Origin: Flammulina velutipes
Taxonomy: Eukaryota; Basidiomycota; Agaricomycetes; Agaricales; Physalacriaceae
DNA: 64,000 nucleotides
Direction: 5' to 3'
Assembly: GCA_011800155.1 (NCBI GenBank)
Contig: CM022368.1
Location: 2,232,001-2,296,000, forward strand
How positions within the stretch are numbered: position 1 is the first letter of the stretch; each line of letters opens with the position of its first letter. A program made the position numbers and the translations under genes. Positions 3,650 to 31,331 of this stretch are shown piece by piece. The notes under the pieces are model-generated. The model did not search any database, had not been told where the DNA came from, and saw only the letters and a program-made list of their open reading frames with translations.

Positions 3650-4308
3650 TCATACCCACAACGCCTGAATGACTTGAGAAAATGTGTTTTGAAGAAGCAG
3701 AGATATGCATACCGTGGCAGTCTGCGTTTCGTGTCCATCCTTGTCCTTGGTGTTGGTAACCGAGGCAGGATCGATGCTGGGAGTATTGATGTGTTTGGAT
3801 AGATTTTTGAACGTTCCCAAGTCGAGGCCGTGCTTCTTTACGAGACTGTCCAGTTGGGAGGCATTTGCGGACTTGGCTTCTGTCAGTAACATTGTAAGAG
3901 TTTGTGCAGATATGCCTGTGGGAGCTGATTCCTCAAGTCGTACGCGAGATTGTACGACTTTGTTAGGCATTTGAGACTGATTAATGCGTGTCAGAGGAAA
4001 GTGGACGGAAAGGGAGAAACAGGCGCTGACAGGTTTGACTGGCTGGACATGTTCGTGGTCTACGCGCACTTGACCCATCTTGGTCAGATTTGACAGGAAT
4101 TGAGGATCGTGCGCGTCCTGATCAATTTCTGGCTATGTCGGTGAACTGTCGCGTAAATTGGGGCGGCACACTCACCTTTCGTTTTTATTTCACTGGCTTT
4201 CTGCGACGGAGCAGTAGAAGGCATGTCTCCCTTTCGTGAGCCGGCCCATTCTGGTCTTCGAACAGTTTTCGGATATGATTTTACTACTTTTGATGTCGCA
4301 CTGCCCAT
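3650..4308 (-). CDS. small conserved fungal protein, probably N-myristoylated
   Basis: Function not recognised. Three exons (4308-4176, 4128-3713, 3664-3650) give 187 residues. The N-terminus MGSATSK fits the N-myristoylation pattern (Gly2, Ser6), suggesting attachment to a membrane. It is followed by a basic-aromatic stretch (VVKSYPKTVRRPEWAG) and a Ser/Thr-rich linker; the middle holds a helical segment rich in Leu and Ala (TLTMLLTEAKSANASQLDSL). The protein ends in ALWV after a 48-nt in-frame intron. No membrane span or catalytic motif is visible. The first intron (4129-4175) was placed at the only acceptor that keeps the frame. It converges with MSH3. Confidence 0.72.
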
Positions 4309-4639
4309 GATGGAAAGAGAACAAGACGAACAAAGTTCCCACGCTCATGCGTTTCGCGTGGCGTATCGTTAGGGGAATTCTGATCCACGACAGGACGGAA
4401 CCATATCTAGTCGATCTTGTGTGAACAATGCAAGCAAGGGGAAACATAATACATGTGTGAGTAAACAACGAGGCAAATTATAAGCTACATATTTTACACC
4501 GAGTCCTGTCAGTGAGTACAAAGGAAGATATACAGTATTTGAAAGTCGCAGAGGACAATTAATAAATGTCCGTGAGGCATGGAATCGTGATAAGCATCAT
4601 CACGAACGATCTAGTGATCACAATGATATACAAAGAAAA

Positions 4640-5985
4640 TTAGGCACCGGAGGAGGGATGGGTGTCTTGGTATAATCCAAATGGCAAAAACGCGTCGGGA
4701 GGTGGTCGACCTATGACCTGCTCAGTAAGAACAACATCGTAGTGGGGTGCTCCCGTGTTCTCATCCGGAAACACCGGCTGGCCATATGAGTCATGCGAAC
4801 CGAAGAACTGCGCGGGCTCCCATGGCGCGTACTGCACATCCTCAGGTTGAACCATCGGCGGTGGCATGTATGGGGTATAATAGAATGAGTCAGGATTTGG
4901 GGCAGAGAAGTTTGACGTTTGGGGCCAGGTTTGAGAGTTGACTGGCCGAGGTCGGACCGGAAAGTCGTTCCTGCCACTATCCCAGCCAGTCTGGTTCGAA
5001 GCAATTGCAGCGAGAGGGGAAACTTGATAGAGGGTGCTACCTAAGCTCCCCTCGGGACGGTCGAATGAGTTGCTTCCATTGTCATACTGTTCGGCCGTAA
5101 ATCCAGTTTCCTAGAGAAAGTTGCTTCAGTGGTGAACACCAGTGGTTAAAATAAAGCAATACGTACCTGGTAGCTCATGAAGTCTGACGAAAAAGTCGTT
5201 GCGAACGGGTACTGGGACAAATATTCCCTATTTCCCGTCATCGAGGTGAACGAGCGTGAGCGTCGCTTCAGAGAACGGTCCGTTGGTTGGGAAATATTCT
5301 CCTCGAACGCAAAGAGCTGCGCAGACGGTATGATAGGCACTGAAAGTGAGCGCCTATGCATTGCTTTACGAGAATACTGCTCCTCCGCTCGAGGTGAGAT
5401 TGTATCGGTGGGAGATGGCGGAACGGGTGTTGCAGTACCAGAGCGTGATTGGGTGAGGTCGAGAGCAGAAACCGCGGCTCTACGATTTTGTTTGGCGCCA
5501 CGGGATGAGCGAGAGCGGCGCGAACGTTTCTCAGATTTAGAGCGATGTCGTTGAGGGCGAAAGATATAATTCGGGTTACGAAGAGCGTGTTCTTCCTTTG
5601 CTTCCTCCTGGCGTTGCATCCAGTACGCCTTCTCCGTATCTGGTAACGAGCGCCACATTTCGCCTGCCTGTTTGGACAATATACCAGGCGCCCTGGGAGA
5701 GTTTTTGTTACGCCGCGTCCTAGGACCAGGTTTGGCATGGTCCTTTGAGAACTGCCGACGAAACAGGATAAAACCGTTCGGGGGCCGAGGGATATGCTCT
5801 GGCGCGCGCGCAGGCCCAGCGTCTTCTTCTGGGTCTACAGCATTGTCGTCGATGTGGAAGGTGCTAGCAAAAGTCTCCCATGCGCCAGTATGAGCTACAG
5901 GCTCGTTGGGAACCGGAAAGGTAGCCTGCTCGCTGATGTAGTCCCCGTCCTCGTTCTTGGGGATCCAACCGGAGGGAGACGACAT
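4640..5985 (-). CDS. HMG-box transcription factor (MATA/SOX type)
   Basis: Two exons (5985-5167, 5110-4640) give 429 residues. A single HMG box at about residues 66-140 starts IPRPPNGFILFRRQFSKDH and continues through ISKQAGEMWRSLP-like helix-2 and YWMQRQEEAKEEH helix-3 residues, the sequence-specific (TCF/SOX/MATA) class rather than the nonspecific chromatin class. The box carries a basic insertion (RTRRNKNSPRAPG). A strongly basic Arg/Ser stretch just after it probably serves nuclear import. The rest is Pro/Gln/Ser-rich and low in complexity, as in fungal HMG activators that act in mating or development. A TATA-like run lies about 53-61 bp upstream of the ATG. I cannot say whether this is a mating-pathway regulator: no homeodomain or pheromone genes are nearby. 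Confidence 0.85.
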
Positions 5986-22479: not shown

Positions 22480-22779
22480 GTAACACAGAACAATTCAACA
22501 AAGGGTGTAACATGTCATTCCAAATATGTGATCATGCTTGCTTCAGACGACCACGTATTTGCTAACAGAAATGCGTTTACAACAGGTATGTTGCAAATTT
22601 GCCTTCAAGTTTTCGTTGTACAGAACACATACAGTAACGTTCAGATCAACGCACATAAAGTTAGAGAAGGGTTATCTTTCCTTTGCCACGCACTTTCCAG
22701 TTCAATGAGCAGGCCATTGATTGAACAATTCTACGGCATTGCATAACATCGGACCCCCCATGTCTCATCTGAGGACGTT

Positions 22780-23067
22780 ATGGAACTACCCATAGGCTCC
22801 CTTCGCCCACCTTTGGCTTCGAACAAGTCCGATCTTAACGATGGTATTGAAGACCTCCGTTTGAAGGAAACCCTGGGTGACTTTTTGAGGCGCCGCACGG
22901 CAAATGTCCTACATAATCGTCGAGTACATGGGAAAAACGACTTTACACTGTGCGCCACGCATAATTTGGCCCCCATTATACAAGAAGCAATAGGCCTACA
23001 GCGTGGTTTCGACGAAACGAAGGCATGGAAAAAGGCATATAAAACATGGGAGAAGAGTTTGCGGTAG
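22780..23067 (+). CDS. unrecognised short open frame (95 residues)
   Basis: One ATG-to-stop frame without family resemblance, with acidic-basic alternation (LKETLGDFLRRRTANVLHNR) compatible with a helix. It lies in the 1 kb between MOG1 and the mobile element. It could be the last exon of a small gene, a remnant, or chance; the opposite strand also has an open frame here. Reported only because the gap is otherwise empty. Confidence 0.2.
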   Translation: MELPIGSLRPPLASNKSDLNDGIEDLRLKETLGDFLRRRTANVLHNRRVHGKNDFTLCATHNLAPIIQEAIGLQRGFDETKAWKKAYKTWEKSLR

Positions 23068-23177
23068 TACCTGGATTGTACTGTCGATTGTCGTACGTAT
23101 ATTACCAGGCAAAGGAGGTGGGCAAGTAGTACTCTTTAGACCTGAAAGAAATTCGGGGCACGGGCGATGCCTGTGCT

Positions 23178-23244
23178 TAAACGAAAACTAAACTAAAATA
23201 AAATAAAAATAAAAGAAGGAAGAGAAAAGAGAAAGAGAAAGACG
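23178..23244. repeat. A/G-rich low-complexity tract
   Basis: About 65 bp of nearly pure purine on the + strand (runs of AAAAT, then GAAAGAGAAAG). It lies about 270 bp outside the left candidate terminus of the mobile element. No coding potential. Confidence 0.7.
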
Positions 23245-23510
23245 TCGGAATACACCAAGTCACGTACCTGAACGTATTTGTTCACAGAACGGAGACGATA
23301 GAGGCGACGGTCAACGTGCAACGACCTCCGCACATTGACGTGTATGTAAGCAGATGCCGCTATCAACCGTGCGGTAGCAGCAACAATTATGCTGCCTCAA
23401 TACCTTCTCAAATCGTCCCAATTTTTTTTTCATAGCTTCTTATATATATGTAGTACATGCGATAAATTTTATACGATATTACAAGGATGTCTTGCCCACT
23501 GATAAATCAT

Positions 23511-23550
23511 TTGCTATCGAGCTGCTATCTGCTATCTAGCGGAGTTTCAA
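23511..23550 (+). repeat. left candidate terminal inverted repeat
   Basis: Begins TTGCTATCG, contains AGCTGCTATC and AGCGGAGTTTCAA. Compared with the right repeat it carries an extra TGCTATC unit, so the two ends are not identical. A related palindrome-like sequence (GCTATCAA...GCGGTAGC) lies farther out near 23349-23375, so the true terminus could extend there. Confidence 0.55.
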
Positions 23551-23621
23551 TATGGCATCACAAACGATTCGGCCGCTTACCAAACGCACGCACTTCACTC
23601 TTCAACATCGATGTTCAACGT

Positions 23622-26600
23622 TCAACGCCCAACCACATCATCGTCGACCGTGTTCTTCATCGGACAAGGGTGCGTTGGTCGTCTGCTATTCCGTCCTATA
23701 CAAAGCTTACTCCCACAATCCTGGCAAGCCCGCGGACAATTACGCCTGTTATTATTCCCCGGACATCCCGCCTCGCCACATTTCCAGCACGACCGTTCTG
23801 CTCGCTGACGTGTCGCAAGCTGGCGCGACTTTTTTACTACCGGCTCGCCACCCTGTACCATATCGTTAGACTGGTTGGATATAGGTGTGCTGAGAGCCTT
23901 GCGCTTTCGGCGCTGATTGTCATTGGTGTACGCGGGAGTAGGAGCATATGAAGGCCCGGGTTCTGACATGGGTACTATGGTGCGTAGCGCATCTTGTGCA
24001 TGATGTGTACTGTGCTGACCAGATTCTTGTATGCTCGGTCCCGCCATGTCTGAAATGTGCAACAACGGCGAAGATATACGATCGGATATTGGAGATGGAG
24101 GGATTGAAGTGGAAGGGCATGATGGACTCGATGGCGGTAGCACTATAGGTGATACGAGGGGCGTATTAGATGGCGAGGATGGGAGATCAATGATACGAGA
24201 CGATAGAATTGGTGATATTTGCAGTTGCGGCCGTGGTTGTGGATGAGACTGGCTGGATGAGGATGGTGTCGGTACTGGCATAGAAGAATTCTGTGGGATG
24301 ACTCGATAGCCAGAACTTGGTGTACGATAGTTTGATTTATCAATCTCTGGTACGGCGGGCATATTCATGAGACGAGCAGTGTTCAGGACCAATTGATCCG
24401 TGGGTTTGCGCTTGTCAAATGTTGCCTGTCGGGTATTGCGTGCATTGCCCAAGGTCTTATATGTTGTGAAGTATGCTTTGAGATGTTCAGGTAGCTAGAT
24501 AAGATAGTGTGAGTTGGAGATTTAATTAAATACTATCTGCTTACCTTGTAAAAGATGTCAACACCATTTACAGAGTCATTCCATGTGACCACAGCAGTAT
24601 CCCATTTCCCAAGTGCTGCATCATTGAAGGTTGGATCACTGTATATCTTGTTATTGAACAATTTCCGCTCTGCAGCGGTATGTACCGACAAGACAGCATG
24701 ACGTGTCCCTTGTTTCTCTGCAAGATATGCATATTTGCGGGGAACTAAAGCAGAGTTAAATGGCTGAATACCACACTGTGCGTGAACATCAGACGGGATA
24801 GGAAGGATGCCAAATGTCTCGATGGTTTGTTCAAACATGTTTCCGTTGACCCAACGTCCAATAGGTAGTGAGTCTGGTACGAGTCTCCGTATCTTTTCGG
24901 AGTTGAGAAGCTCTTGCCGTTCATTTATCAACCACAAATCAAAATGACCCACATAATGCTGGCCAGTACGGTTGAAAGTTCCGACCTATATAGATGTTCT
25001 TGTTAGTATTGAATCTCAAAGAAACACTAGTTAATTACCAGCATGTTATGATTGAATGTAAATTCAAGTAGTCGATTATTAATATGACGGGGAGATACAC
25101 GTCCATGGTTTGGAAGATGATGACGCATCTTTCGATGAACACCTCCTTCAGTGAAGTTGGTGCCACGAAAGCATCGGTAAACGGGTAGGCCATTTGATGC
25201 TGTTCGGAGACAATAATATAATGGAAAGTCTGGTGGATCAGATAGATAACCCATTTTCACTAGAACAAGTAGGTTCTTTGCAATTTTCCAGGTTCCAGCA
25301 CTGAATAGTGGCTCATTTGTCTGTGCATCCTGGAGAGATCCGTAGGTACGGAAGAGTTGTACAAGAATATCATAGAGAGCTTCCGCTGGGGGAATAATAA
25401 ACTTGCAATGTCGTTTGATAAACCGAGGATCTGACTGTATTTGTGTATCCCATGTTGTACCTTTTCGGGCGAGATATGCTGAAATGCGACGCTTATCTTC
25501 AGCATCAGGGAGAAAGATAGCATCACGAAGAATCCGAACAAATGTGACACGGAGCCCATGCCGTTTTGGAATCTGAAGCATTTGAAAGAAATGAAAACTA
25601 TCTTTCAGTACACGACTCCGGGGATGTTTCGGCCAAGTAATGTTTGTGATAGCCGTAAGAATGGCTCGACAAGCTCCTACACCTTTATCATCTTGTTTAA
25701 AGGACGAGAGCTCCTTGACAGTTACAAATCCATCACCAAGAGGCTGCTCAAAGTTAAGATCAGGACCAATACTGTCATTGAGAGAGTCAGGTTCCATTGA
25801 TATTGCCTCCTCAATGAGAGCCTCCCGTTCCTGTGAGATATCCATTGTAGATATGTATGAACTCTGAGAAAGTGACAAAGAGTGAGAGTTCACTGTGGAT
25901 AACTCGAGATGATGATAATTTGGAACATATGACTTTAGCCGTGTCTTTAGACAGACCACATCAAAAGGAGTTGGGCCAAAGTTAGCTAGCTTTTTGTCAC
26001 GATGTGTAGAGACCTTTGCAGCAGGAACAAAGACTTTGGTAACTTGTACAATAGTACGAGTAGGAGAGATATTGATACCATCAATAGATATCTCACTTCG
26101 TAAAGAAGGTGACAGAATTCCTCGTGCAATAATAGTTGTGCGATCATTCTGATAGAGAAACACCTCTGTACCAATTGCAGGTGGGCTTGCATTAGTGAAG
26201 CAGAGAGGAATTGGAACACGCATAGACATAAGAGCTTCATATATTTGTAGAGAAATCCAGGCGTCAAGTCCTGCATAGCTGATTTGATCAGCAGTCAGCT
26301 CTAGACGGCTCCAGTCCGGACGGAGCCGCTCATCTTTGTTAAGCTGTTTCTTGAGTACTTGAGCACAAAGATCTGCAAGACCGATCCTAGCATCAGAAAC
26401 AATGCCTCTACTCTTAGCAAGATGCCCAAGATCAATGCCACTCGGAAATGGTATTGGTGAATTGCTCTCCTCCTGCAAATGTCGGAGATCCAAAGAAATA
26501 TTCCGGCCTACTTTGACAACTTGGGGACTTCGTAAAAGAGTCAGAAGCTGACTTGGAAAGTGACCATCTGCTATGTGTTTGCTAAGCTAAATCATAATAT

Positions 26601-29176
26601 TGTTAACCGTACTATTCAAGCTGAGAGAACAATTTACTTACTTGAAAGATCCATACAACATTCCCATGTGAAAGCTGAAGAATAGCTGTTTGAGCTCTTT
26701 CTGATTGACCAGCTCGTCGGGCATCCACATCCACATCCCATTCAGTATCTAAACCAACAACTATTTGATCATCTTCTTTGTGAGATGCAACATTCATAAG
26801 TGATAGAATAGCAGTATCTATCTCAACAATAGTTGATTTCACAAAGACTGTGACTGTTTCAGGAAGTGTAGCCATAGGCAATGCACCATACTTTGTATAT
26901 GGAACAAGCTCATCTCGTAGCGTTGGAAATGATGTCTCCAACATATGTTTATCCTTCATTGTGTCAGAGAAGAATAATTTTGGTTGACTCAACCCAAATA
27001 GGTCAATCATCTTTCGCATCTTTTCAAGCTCTCCCTCAAACTGTGAGTGTGCCGTTGTTGCTACAAGATCGCACATCCGGATCTCACCATACTTGTTGGT
27101 AACAGTCAAAGCAGCACTAAAAATAGGCTCGCCTCCAGGTTTCTGAAGGAATTTTGGTAGCTATGTATATAGAATATTGAGCTCGTAGCACAATGAAAAT
27201 GAAAAGATAAACATACCTTATGACTATGATCAATAGCATATACATCACTATCTAGAAGTGAAGTATGCTGCGTGTACTGTGCTTCATGTTCCTCGATAAA
27301 CTGATTATAGATCGCAGAAAGTGTCTTTGCTGAGGGTAGTAAAGAGCGAAGACCATTCGGATCATCAAATGTAGGAAAGGACTCGTATGTGCCACGAGCT
27401 GAACCAGCTGTATCACGTGCAAGAAGCTCCTGAAGATATTGCACTTCAAGAGTCTCATAGTGAGCACGATGCATCACCTTTAGAGAATCAGCAAACTGCT
27501 TTGATCCCATCCCGTTTGAAAAACATCGCCGCATCATTGCAAAGACAGACTTGGAGATAGCAGTACGATGCGTAAGAATAGCGGGAAATTCGGTAGCAAG
27601 GGATCGAGGAAGACATGCAAGTATACGAGAATCCCAAGACTGGAAAGTAGCCATAGGGTTTACACAAAGATTGCAGCGGTAACGGTAACCAATAATGTAA
27701 AACACATCATCAAGATCAACAACATGACGAGGATACTGAGGATAACCATGCCGCACTAAAAAGCCTGAACATGGATGCCCATCATGAACCTTTGGACAGG
27801 GAATATGCTCTACAAGAGGAAGAGGGTCCCAGTAAAAGAAACGGGGATTGAAGAGCAACGTGGGATAGATGTTTGTACGTCGGAGGATGAAATAAGTGTC
27901 AATACGGGGAAGCCAAAATGATTTAAGTTTCTCGTAGAAACGTATCCGAGTACCACGACCTTTACCATCAGTCATGGACTTGATATACTGCAGCTTCGCC
28001 GTGAAAAGGTCCATGACCCATTTAGGTGGTGCACGCTTGAGACGTATCTCCTCATCATCATTGGGATGAGTGCGCGTAGCAGGAGTATTGTCCTCATCCG
28101 ACGAGTCATCATCAGACTCCTCCTCTGATAACTCGGACGAGCTCCCGTCATCGTTGTGTGTATGCGTATGGACAAAGCGCTGCTGCGGCGGGATAATATA
28201 ACTCTCCTGCCTCGAATCTTGCCAGCCCGAGAAATCAGGGGGCGCGGCAGTGGTTTCATCTCGTGCTACCTGAAAGATAGGTGCCGCCCTTCTCGATTCT
28301 GTGACCGGATACAGATTTCGCTTAGGTTCGTAAAGCTAAAAAGAGGGAAGCCGTGAGTAGAGAGTAGTATACATACAGAGTGGGAGCTCACCCTCTTCTT
28401 CGTTATTTTAGCACTACTTGAGACCTTCTTTGGCCGGCCTGGTGGTCGCTTCTCAGCGGGATCAGGAATAGGGTTCTTGCGCGGCCGCCCTCTTGGTCGT
28501 TTGGGCTCAAGCGGCACCGACTCGTCCAAAGTCTTCCGTGGCCGGCCGCGGCCTCGCTTGGCAGGTTTTTCGGTAGCGAGAGCAGGGGTTTTGGCGTCGG
28601 AGTGCTCACCAGCTACGCCTGCAGAGTGGTCCCGGTCATGATCGGGGGATGGGGTGTGGCGCGGGCGCATAACGATGCCGCCGTCGCTATCGTCTGCATC
28701 CGCATTGTCGTTGTCGACATCAGCATCAGCATCTACTATATTTTAAAGCAGTTCAAGTAATTAAAGGAATACAACGCACCATATTCCGCGCCAGAGTCCA
28801 TGCGCACTTCCAATAAATCTCCTGATTCATATCCTCTATCATCTCCATCCCAGAGGTCTGGCATACCCTCAATGTATTCGTCTCCGGGATCCGTTGACAC
28901 ATCGTGGTCAAGCGCGTATATGTCGTCCGTATCGATATCTCCGTTATTGGCAGTGGCATCGCCGCCATCTGCACCATCTGTATCAGGTCTGTACAGCGCA
29001 TCAGTAAAGAGTGAGAGTAAAAGTAGAATAACAAACGTTGTATAGTCGTTGTAGTCGCCAACGGCCTCGCCATACGGCGAGGTCGTTGGACCAGTGACCT
29101 CGCCATAGGGCGAGGCCACTGGCGAATCATACATGGGATAGATTGGCTCCATTGGAGGAGATAGACTGGTGTCCAT
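23622..29176 (-). CDS. multidomain element protein: AT-hooks, Cys cluster, DDE-like region, DEDDy exonuclease, Cys-rich tail
   Basis: Eight exons (29176-29037, 28988-28780, 28735-28392, 28335-27217, 27160-26642, 26586-25039, 24985-24545, 24494-23622) give 1,730 residues, all phases closing; an ATG at 29248 would add 24. In order: acidic N-terminus with two SPYGE repeats; three AT-hooks near 176, 195 and 212 (KRGRGRPRK, KRPRGRPRK, KRPPGRPKK); Asp/Glu stretch; Cys 411/420/452/455 likely a zinc site; an RNase H-like region with YAIDHSHK (Asp600) and LFFSDTMKDK (Asp670) resembling DDE transposases; a full DEDDy 3'-5' exonuclease with Exo I GLDTEWD (Asp742/Glu744), Exo II ISLDLRHL (Asp810), Exo III YAGLD (Tyr881/Asp885), closest to WRN-type; a 550-residue unassigned region; a Ser/Pro linker; and eight Cys at 1676-1717. 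I recall similar basidiomycete proteins annotated with DUF6729. Mobility role is inferred. Confidence 0.8.
29065..29115. repeat. paired 18-bp hairpin repeats inside the element gene
   Basis: CCTCGCCATACGGCGAGG at 29065-29082 and CCTCGCCATAGGGCGAGG at 29098-29115, each an inverted repeat with 7-bp arms. They lie in the first exon of the element gene, where they encode two SPYGE repeats, so the hairpins could be a by-product of a coding duplication. Confidence 0.75.
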
Positions 29177-29320
29177 GGTCGGTGGTCGTTGCTGAGAGAC
29201 GTCAGACGCGTGCACGCGTCGAAGACGCGAAATAGGCGTGTTCAACAATCAAGCAATCAAGATGGACGGAAGGATGGAAGGATCGGTGCCGCGCGATCCG
29301 TATGATCGGACATCTCCGTG

Positions 29321-29358
29321 AGTTCAAAGTCCGCTTGATAGCAGCTAGCTGCTATCAA
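29321..29358 (-). repeat. right candidate terminal inverted repeat with a 24-bp perfect palindrome
   Basis: The outer part, 29335-29358, is a perfect palindrome with half-site TTGATAGCAGCT. The inner part reads (minus strand) AAGCGGACTTTGAA, matching the left repeat block at 11 of the 13 aligned positions. The palindrome could bind a dimeric protein or extrude as a hairpin. Confidence 0.6.
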
Positions 29359-29368
29359 AAGCACAGGC

Positions 29369-31331
29369 ATGGCCCTTGACCCAGAAATTCGCAATGTCAA
29401 TAGTAAACCCGGGCCGAAAGTTCCGCTCTTCCTCGTCCTTGACTTCGATGATGTATCCTGGCAAGCACTTACACAATTTAAATGGGGGGAAACGTATCCT
29501 GACGCCTTCTCAGCTACCGCTCATGCCGTTCGAACTTGTGAGAAACTCGTAAAGCTTTTACCAGCCGCAGAGCAAGGCAAGGTTTGCAACAGTCTCAACA
29601 AACCAAACATCGGATACTCATCTATCCTGTTAGCCTCAAATTCTTCTGCTTGCAGGAGAAGTCACACCGTTCAGAAATGACACGGATCGTGAAATGACCT
29701 TCCGCCAGGAATCCAATTTCTACTATCTCTCTGGCTGTACTGTCCCGGCATCGTATCTCCTCGTTGCGTATCAGACTGGCACCTCTCTTGAGAAAACGCC
29801 TTCCGTCCAACTCTTCATACCAAAGGCCGAACTCGCGGACATGATGTGGTCCATTCCACCCCCATCCATCGACGAAGCCTCTACCTCTCACAATGTCTCC
29901 CATGTTCATTATATTGCTGCCCTCGAAGACGAGATCGCCACACTAGTCAAGGCCTTCCCAGACGCCCTGTTCCACACCCTCCCTAGGAACTCTCCACTCT
30001 TCCCAAACCTTTCCGACGATTACTCTCAGATCGTCCTCTCAGCAGAAGGAGGCGCTGTCACCGATGCCTACCTTTTGTCAGCCCTCCATCTCGCCAGGCT
30101 GATCAAAGACGAGGAGGAAATCGCTCTTATCCGCCAGGCGAACCAAATCAGCTCTCGGGCGCACGAAACGGTGATGAGGGTGTTAGGAAAGGCCGTAAAG
30201 GGTGGAATCGTACCTCCAGCACCCGGTTCAACCAGACCACTCCTTCCAGGAGAATGGCTGATCGAGCAAGAGGCCGAAGCTGAAGCCATCTTTGTCGCGT
30301 CCTGTCGACGAGAAGGGTGAGTAGTATATAGATGATAATACTCGTTCAAGATACTCACCTTCCCCATCTAGCTCTGTTCATCAGGCATACCTTCCTATAG
30401 TAGCTGCTGCCTCGCGTGCCTCGACCTTGCACTACTGCTGTAATGATCGCGAGTTTGCATGGGGACCTGTAAAGCCAACCGACCATCACAACCACGACCA
30501 CTTCGCCCAGTCAAGCCAGAAGGAGTTCGATCCTCAGGTGTTGCTCATCGATGCGGGGTGCGAATGGAACTGTTATGCCTCCGACATCACGCGGACGATG
30601 CCAGTCGGAAATGGAGGCAAATTCAACCCCGAAGCAAGAGATATATACAATCTTGTTCTGGAGATGCAGAAGGTACCAACGGCTCTGATAGCTAGAACAC
30701 TGCCTGATCCCGGTTTTCTTCTTAGGCCGCAATGGAGATAACCAAACCCGGAACCCACTGGGACACAATCCACCTTCTCTGCCACAAAGTCCTCATAAAT
30801 GGCTTCCAGAAGTTGGGAATCTTCAAGTCGCCGAATTCGCCCAACTCGGGCTCATGGAATTCTGCTGAGGCTATCTTGGCGTCGGGGATTAGCAGCTCCT
30901 TTTTCCCTCATGGACTTGGTCACAGTTTGGGCATGGACGTACACGATGTTCCCAGCGCCAGCAAGCCAAAAGTGAATACTACGATCAGCGAAACCTCGAA
31001 GGTTGGCCATCCAAGTTTCTATGAGTATCTGCGATTGAGACTTCCGCTGGAAACAGGCATGGTTGTGGTACGCATAAGCTTTCTCTTATACTTTGCGCCT
31101 CACTTAGCCTTACTCCAGACTATTGAACCCGGCATTTACTTTTCCCCGCATCTCTTAGCGCCCATTCGCAACTCGAAGCAAATCAATCACGATGTCCTCG
31201 GTCGGTACGAGTCAGTGGGCGGTGTTCGTATAGAAGACGTGGTCCTGATAACGAAGGAGGGCTTCGAGAATCTTACAACTGTGAAGAGCGAGACCGACTG
31301 GATTGAGGGTGTATGCTCCGGAGAATTGTAA
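29369..31331 (+). CDS. M24B metallopeptidase (Xaa-Pro dipeptidase / aminopeptidase P-like)
   Basis: Five exons (29369-29581, 29634-30316, 30372-30672, 30726-31067, 31119-31331) give 583 residues. N-terminal AMP_N-like domain with TPFRNDTDREMTFRQESNFY and YYLSGC, then the pita-bread catalytic domain with metal ligands in LLIDAGCEWNCYASDITRT (two Asp), FFPHGLGHSLGMDVHD (His), TIEPGIYF (Glu) and VRIEDVV (Glu). It should cleave Xaa-Pro bonds in the cytosol or mitochondria, recycling proline. The first 70 residues include an atypical hydrophobic stretch (VPLFLVLDFDDVSWQAL) where a small intron may have been missed. The ATG is 10 bp from the mobile element's end, so its 5' leader and core promoter must lie inside the element unless transcription starts further in. 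Confidence 0.9.

Follow-up and report, generated by a model that had tools for sequence, protein, structure and literature searches.

A locus at positions 23155-29382 of a 64,000-nucleotide stretch of Flammulina velutipes contig CM022368.1 (called 'the window' below) in all likelihood constitutes one autonomous DNA transposon, a Dada-like member of the IS256-fold branch of DDE transposases. It very probably encodes a DDE transposase, and there is good support for a complete WRN-type 3'-5' exonuclease that splits the RNase H fold of this protein after the second catalytic Asp and before the helical insertion domain with DxxH. An earlier note, made from the sequence alone, had described an apparently intact mobile-element protein that combines a DDE/RNase H-like region with a WRN-type DEDDy exonuclease; this held, but the exonuclease was found to interrupt the DDE domain, and the third acid, E1257, had been missed.

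Transposase gene, nested exonuclease and element ends

Removal of seven GT-AG introns, which are short and break the open frames, gave a product of 1,730 residues from eight exons with zero internal stops, in keeping with the intact gene described previously. An alternative acceptor for intron 4 produced a 1,724-residue model, which was dropped in favour of the longer one because it lacked six residues kept by 21 of 22 aligned homologs. The Pfam search and the homolog alignments used the numbering of the shorter model, in which residues after 604 are six lower than in the 1,730-residue model. Pfam (E<=1) returned DUF6729 (PF20499, E 1.1e-17) and DNA_pol_A_exo1 (PF01612, E 2e-15), the latter agreeing with the exonuclease proposed in the earlier note, and no other match to the protein at this threshold. 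The acids named there (D600, D670, D742/E744, D810 and Y881/D885) were all present under those residue numbers, as were AT-hook-like GRGRP/GRPRK motifs and Cys clusters; E1257, the DxxH motif (D1106/H1109) and the element ends are additional to that description.

Conservation was counted over 61 aligned sequences, the denominators being those with a residue at the given site. Besides the DDE and DxxH positions (Table 1), the exonuclease residues were retained in nearly all sequences (D742 in 58/59, E744 in 56/59, D810 in 54/58, Y881 in 56/60 and D885 in 59/60), and by this alignment the conservation is far beyond chance. In models of two homologs the residues before the exonuclease followed the RNase H strand order, as had been suggested, and in the P0010 structure model the equivalent of E1257 (E737) was located in a helix. 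The homolog models also showed the helical C/DxxH insertion domain of the IS256 fold; one of them matched ISCth4, which was absent among the matches listed for the other. Significant matches in a PDB profile search were confined to the exonuclease part, where both the five catalytic residues and the fold of the WRN-like DEDDy class were present. The assignment of D600, D670 and E1257 as the DDE site of an RNase H fold is well supported.

The limits of the element were resolved by searching the same genome (38.1 Mb, 23 contigs) with the DNA of window positions 22700-29700. Apart from the locus itself, three non-autonomous elements of ~813 bp and one lone end on contig C13 were found. The ~813-bp elements carry both ends, so that copies with shared ends, as anticipated for a mobile element, do exist; they are 87-89% identical to the window element over 82 bp of one end and 84-95% over ~60 bp of the other, and the copy on C2 is 97% and 95% identical to those on C8 and C4, respectively. 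From the junctions, the element ends were read as GGGGCACGGG... and ...CTTGACCC, forming 24-bp inverted repeats, and a motif, GCTGCTATC..AGCGGA(G/C)TTT, occurs on the inner side of each end, its two copies being inverted relative to one another. All four insertions were flanked by perfect 8-bp duplications, each different: AGAAATTC (window), AGGACCAT (C4), ACATGAAG (C2) and GACTGACG (C8). The duplication around the window insertion points to a mobile element and not to a host gene fixed at the locus, a distinction on which the earlier note had made its case depend. For two decayed relatives, on C13 and C4 (C4:3620382), reading of the junctions gave no definable left ends or duplications.

The interiors of the ~813-bp elements (L013, L014 and L015) are mostly unrelated to the window element, which they match mainly in the ends and one inner motif; another autonomous relative may therefore once have existed. 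Since no second full gene copy was found in the 38.1-Mb genome, just a partial relative on C7, recent activity of the element is plausible rather than demonstrated.

Retention and possible use of the exonuclease

The protein search produced 60 similar proteins, eight of them from Arthromyces matolae; those with a named source were mostly from mushrooms, with one from a chytrid. Judged by protein similarity, such genes are common in fungi. Two protein searches scored the best 7,998 and 7,975 candidates by shared words (the second yielding 20 matches), and a last search listed 12, one of them the query; no protein named as an animal Dada was among the matches listed in these searches. No relative was found in the viral contigs searched; one locus from that search carries a WRN-like stretch that matches the exonuclease part alone.

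Among the 49 sequences readable at all eight sites, the DDE acids were complete in every one and all five exonuclease residues in 46. In a separate alignment of 22 homologs and the window protein, with P0069-P0071 excluded (partial, or of other domain content), the chytrid protein and 12 further proteins had the identical layout with every residue intact. The exonuclease thus appears, from residue conservation, to be kept by selection. The exonuclease fold might instead be a structural or nucleic-acid-binding module, with catalysis irrelevant to transposition. The 46 of 49 assessable sequences with a full set of residues, together with the intact sites in the chytrid and the 12 further proteins, make this doubtful, but it retains some weight: the exonuclease site is damaged in P0036, P0037, P0048, P0058 and P0055 (a partial sequence), all of which have the DDE acids, and the 2013 Dada paper, in the text available, names an exonuclease solely for the Laccaria and Ectocarpus elements (PMC3706591). 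These damaged sites, as well as Laccaria protein P0056, which as modelled has none of the five exonuclease residues, weigh against retention by selection and indicate that the exonuclease can be lost. P0036 and P0037 represent clusters of 8 and 21 sequences, in which the DDE acids are intact and the exonuclease site carries E-to-K and Y-to-C changes.

IS256 elements move by a copy-out/paste-in route, and the window element may do likewise or may move by cut-and-paste. We propose that its ends would be bound by the AT-hooks together with the C-terminal Cys cluster and the Cys-bearing DUF6729 domain, that the DDE site in the IS256-fold core would nick these ends and join their 3' strands to target DNA at positions staggered by 8 bp, and that the nested exonuclease would shorten a 3' end within this complex. 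Any trimming of the 3' ends that are transferred would have to stop precisely. Because the ends were exact in all four insertions, loose trimming of joined ends is disfavoured, and a flanking 3' end at the donor site or in an intermediate would be the likelier substrate. A nuclease nested in the fold of a DDE active site is a rare design, the use of which has so far been guessed; with an intact gene, defined ends, 813-bp natural substrates and exact duplications, both the mode of movement and the role of the exonuclease become testable.

Comparison with Dada and other transposons

The combination of DDE transposase and exonuclease was already published in 2013, for Dada elements: in the families from Laccaria bicolor and Ectocarpus siliculosus, a DEDDy exonuclease follows the second Asp and precedes DxxH (Kojima & Jurka 2013, PMC3706591). 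An exonuclease of DEDDh type is present in KolobokD elements (PMC9587614). The statement in the earlier note that known DDE transposases carry no 3'-5' exonuclease was therefore incorrect, and the idea of an exonuclease that processes ends is not new, since the Dada exonuclease has been proposed as likely to process cleaved 3' ends (PMC3706591).

Compared with published Dada by description, the window element is alike in DDE triad, DxxH (a motif described for Dada, PMC3706591, and for IS256), N-terminal Cys cluster, introns and position of the DEDDy exonuclease. The two Asp residues are 70 residues apart, relative to ~68 in zebrafish Dada (D567, D635, E811; PMC3706591), while the Asp-to-Glu distance is longer than in the zebrafish element as a result of the exonuclease insert. 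The N-terminal CCCC cluster has a spacing of 8/31/2 (4/34/2 in zebrafish). In place of the C-terminal CCHC finger of Dada, eight aligned Cys residues were found and no clear CX2CX9HX8C. Dada as published in 2013 (PMC3706591) and in a 2022 paper makes 6-7-bp duplications and inserts in small RNA genes (tRNA/snRNA), and according to the 2013 paper it has no terminal inverted repeats, whereas the window element and its three relatives have 8-bp duplications in 4/4 insertions, 24-bp inverted repeats in the case of the window element, and four mutually unrelated insertion sites in which no such target was found. On these grounds the element was filed beside Dada and not as a plain member.

Joined flanks of the four insertions contained 0 tRNA. 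Neither in the window nor in the surroundings of the three copies and of one relic (L013-L016) was there a tRNA match or an Rfam match that reached its gathering score; Rfam was run with the element left in place, so that a split gene could escape. Three further matches were each far below the gathering score. An ordinary Dada of the published type, site-specific for small RNA genes but with its target decayed or unrecognised, would account for the matching DDE, DxxH, CCCC cluster, introns and exonuclease position, and for Dada-U1 a duplication of 8 bp was left open by the 2013 authors (PMC3706591), which likewise counts against setting the element apart. It is nevertheless improbable in view of the four unrelated 8-bp duplications at four sites, the lack of tRNA in the joined flanks and of Rfam matches at the loci searched, and the presence of real inverted repeats, a feature that the 2013 paper did not find in Dada (PMC3706591). 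The small-RNA-gene targeting of Dada is, these results suggest, not general to the exonuclease-bearing branch.

A domesticated transposase-exonuclease, fixed at the locus as a host gene for genome defence or repair, would fit the intact frame and the single full-length copy found in the genome, but was set aside as very improbable because the locus still has its two inverted ends and is flanked by a perfect target duplication, in addition to which non-autonomous copies share the ends and other fungi hold several copies (for example, A. matolae).

The Dada-like transposon favoured here also differs from other known systems. ISCth4 of the IS256 family (PMC7780238; PDB 6xgx) shares the RNase H fold, in which a helical insertion domain with C/DxxH lies between the second Asp and Glu, and has a D-D distance of 66; it is bacterial, whereas the window element has ~400 extra residues, including the exonuclease, between the second Asp and DxxH, and Cys domains, which the available text on ISCth4 does not mention (PMC7780238). 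KolobokD is likewise a DDE transposon encoding a 3'-5' exonuclease, but Kolobok makes TTAA duplications (PMC9587614), which were not seen in the four insertions, all with 8-bp duplications. The WRN exonuclease (PDB 2e6l, 2fbt) is part of a host repair helicase, whereas in the window element the domain lies inside a transposase. KDZ (Zisupton) elements agree in the 8-bp duplication, yet the protein had no KDZ-type Pfam match at E<=1.

Dada elements have been reported in other basidiomycetes, with 15 families in Agaricus bisporus (PMC7473861) and a listing in Ganoderma (PMC8955403). The ends of the Laccaria elements are apparently undefined, as their family names carry no target (Table 1 of PMC3706591), and no defined ends of an exonuclease-bearing fungal Dada were found in the literature searched, Repbase being outside its scope; DUF6729 is mentioned nowhere in that literature. 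As far as the same literature shows, what is new here is the definition of ends for an exonuclease-bearing member: its inverted repeats are 24 bp long, its duplications 8 bp, and a small-RNA gene was not found as its target. More tentatively, though as a serious possibility, exonuclease-bearing Dada-like elements may form their own lineage across fungi and probably eukaryotic metagenome sources, with insertion at unrelated sites, 8-bp duplications and inverted repeats, in which the exonuclease, lodged within the transposase beside the DDE site, would take an active part in transposition by processing donor ends or an intermediate.

Coordinates and neighbouring sequences

Table 1. Positions in the window of the element, its ends and the features of its transposase gene
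Feature	Position	Strand	Remarks
Whole element, 6,228 bp	23155..29382	.	Limits follow from the 8-bp duplications and from ends in common with other copies
Target-site duplication, left copy AGAAATTC	23147..23154	.	Identical to 29383-29390
Target-site duplication, right copy AGAAATTC	29383..29390	.	Perfect 8-bp match to left copy
Left terminal inverted repeat GGGGCACGGGCGATGCCTGTGCTT	23155..23178	+	88% complementary to right end; common to three non-autonomous elements
Right terminal inverted repeat (GGGTCAAGGGCCATGCCTGTGCTT read inward)	29359..29382	-	24 bp
Left subterminal motif GCTGCTATC...TAGCGGAGTTT	23521..23547	+	Recurs inward of right end and in non-autonomous copies
Right subterminal motif, palindrome GATAGCAGCTAGCTGCTATC and AGCGGACTTT	29326..29356	-	
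Transposase gene	23622..29176	-	8 exons, 1,730 aa; splice sites predicted from frames, GT-AG and homologs
Exons	29176-29037, 28988-28780, 28735-28392, 28335-27217, 27160-26642, 26586-25039, 24985-24545, 24494-23622	-	
AT-hook-like motifs GRGRPRK, RGRPRK, PGRPKK	28426..28556	-	Putative function
DUF6729 domain, residues 358-576	27301..27957	-	Conserved C411, C420, C452, C455
D600, first DDE acid (YAIDHSHK)	27229..27231	-	D in 57/57
D670, second DDE acid (FFSDTMKD)	26963..26965	-	D in 61/61; D674 of motif likewise 61/61
WRN-type DEDDy exonuclease, residues ~733-898	26224..26776	-	D742, E744, D810, Y881, D885; intron 26641-26587 inside
DxxH motif D1106-H1109 (KDSFHFF)	25591..25602	-	D1106 in 59/60, H1109 in 60/60
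RGTNFTEGGVH motif with E1257, third DDE acid	25135..25167	-	56/57
C-terminal cluster, eight aligned Cys (C1676 to C1717)	23664..23789	-	Putative zinc binding

Within exon 1, window positions 29055-29125 form an inverted repeat with 35-nt arms 1 nt apart, which codes for a repeated SPYGE(V/A). In the adjoining stretch, 29383-31331, there is an aminopeptidase-P-like gene (AMP_N and Peptidase_M24); as the element sits just upstream of this gene, it may affect its promoter.

On C7, a gene in locus L017 (G000:C7:399000-408900, positions 4220-5961, + strand) has AT-hooks and an N-terminal half resembling the DUF6729 region (31% identity, E 5e-21), which the Pfam DUF6729 model did not match, and a C-terminal Cys cluster 50% identical over 44 residues; between these halves the DDE/exonuclease match is absent. 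The gene may encode a host protein that arose from the two DNA-binding terminal parts of a transposase of this kind.

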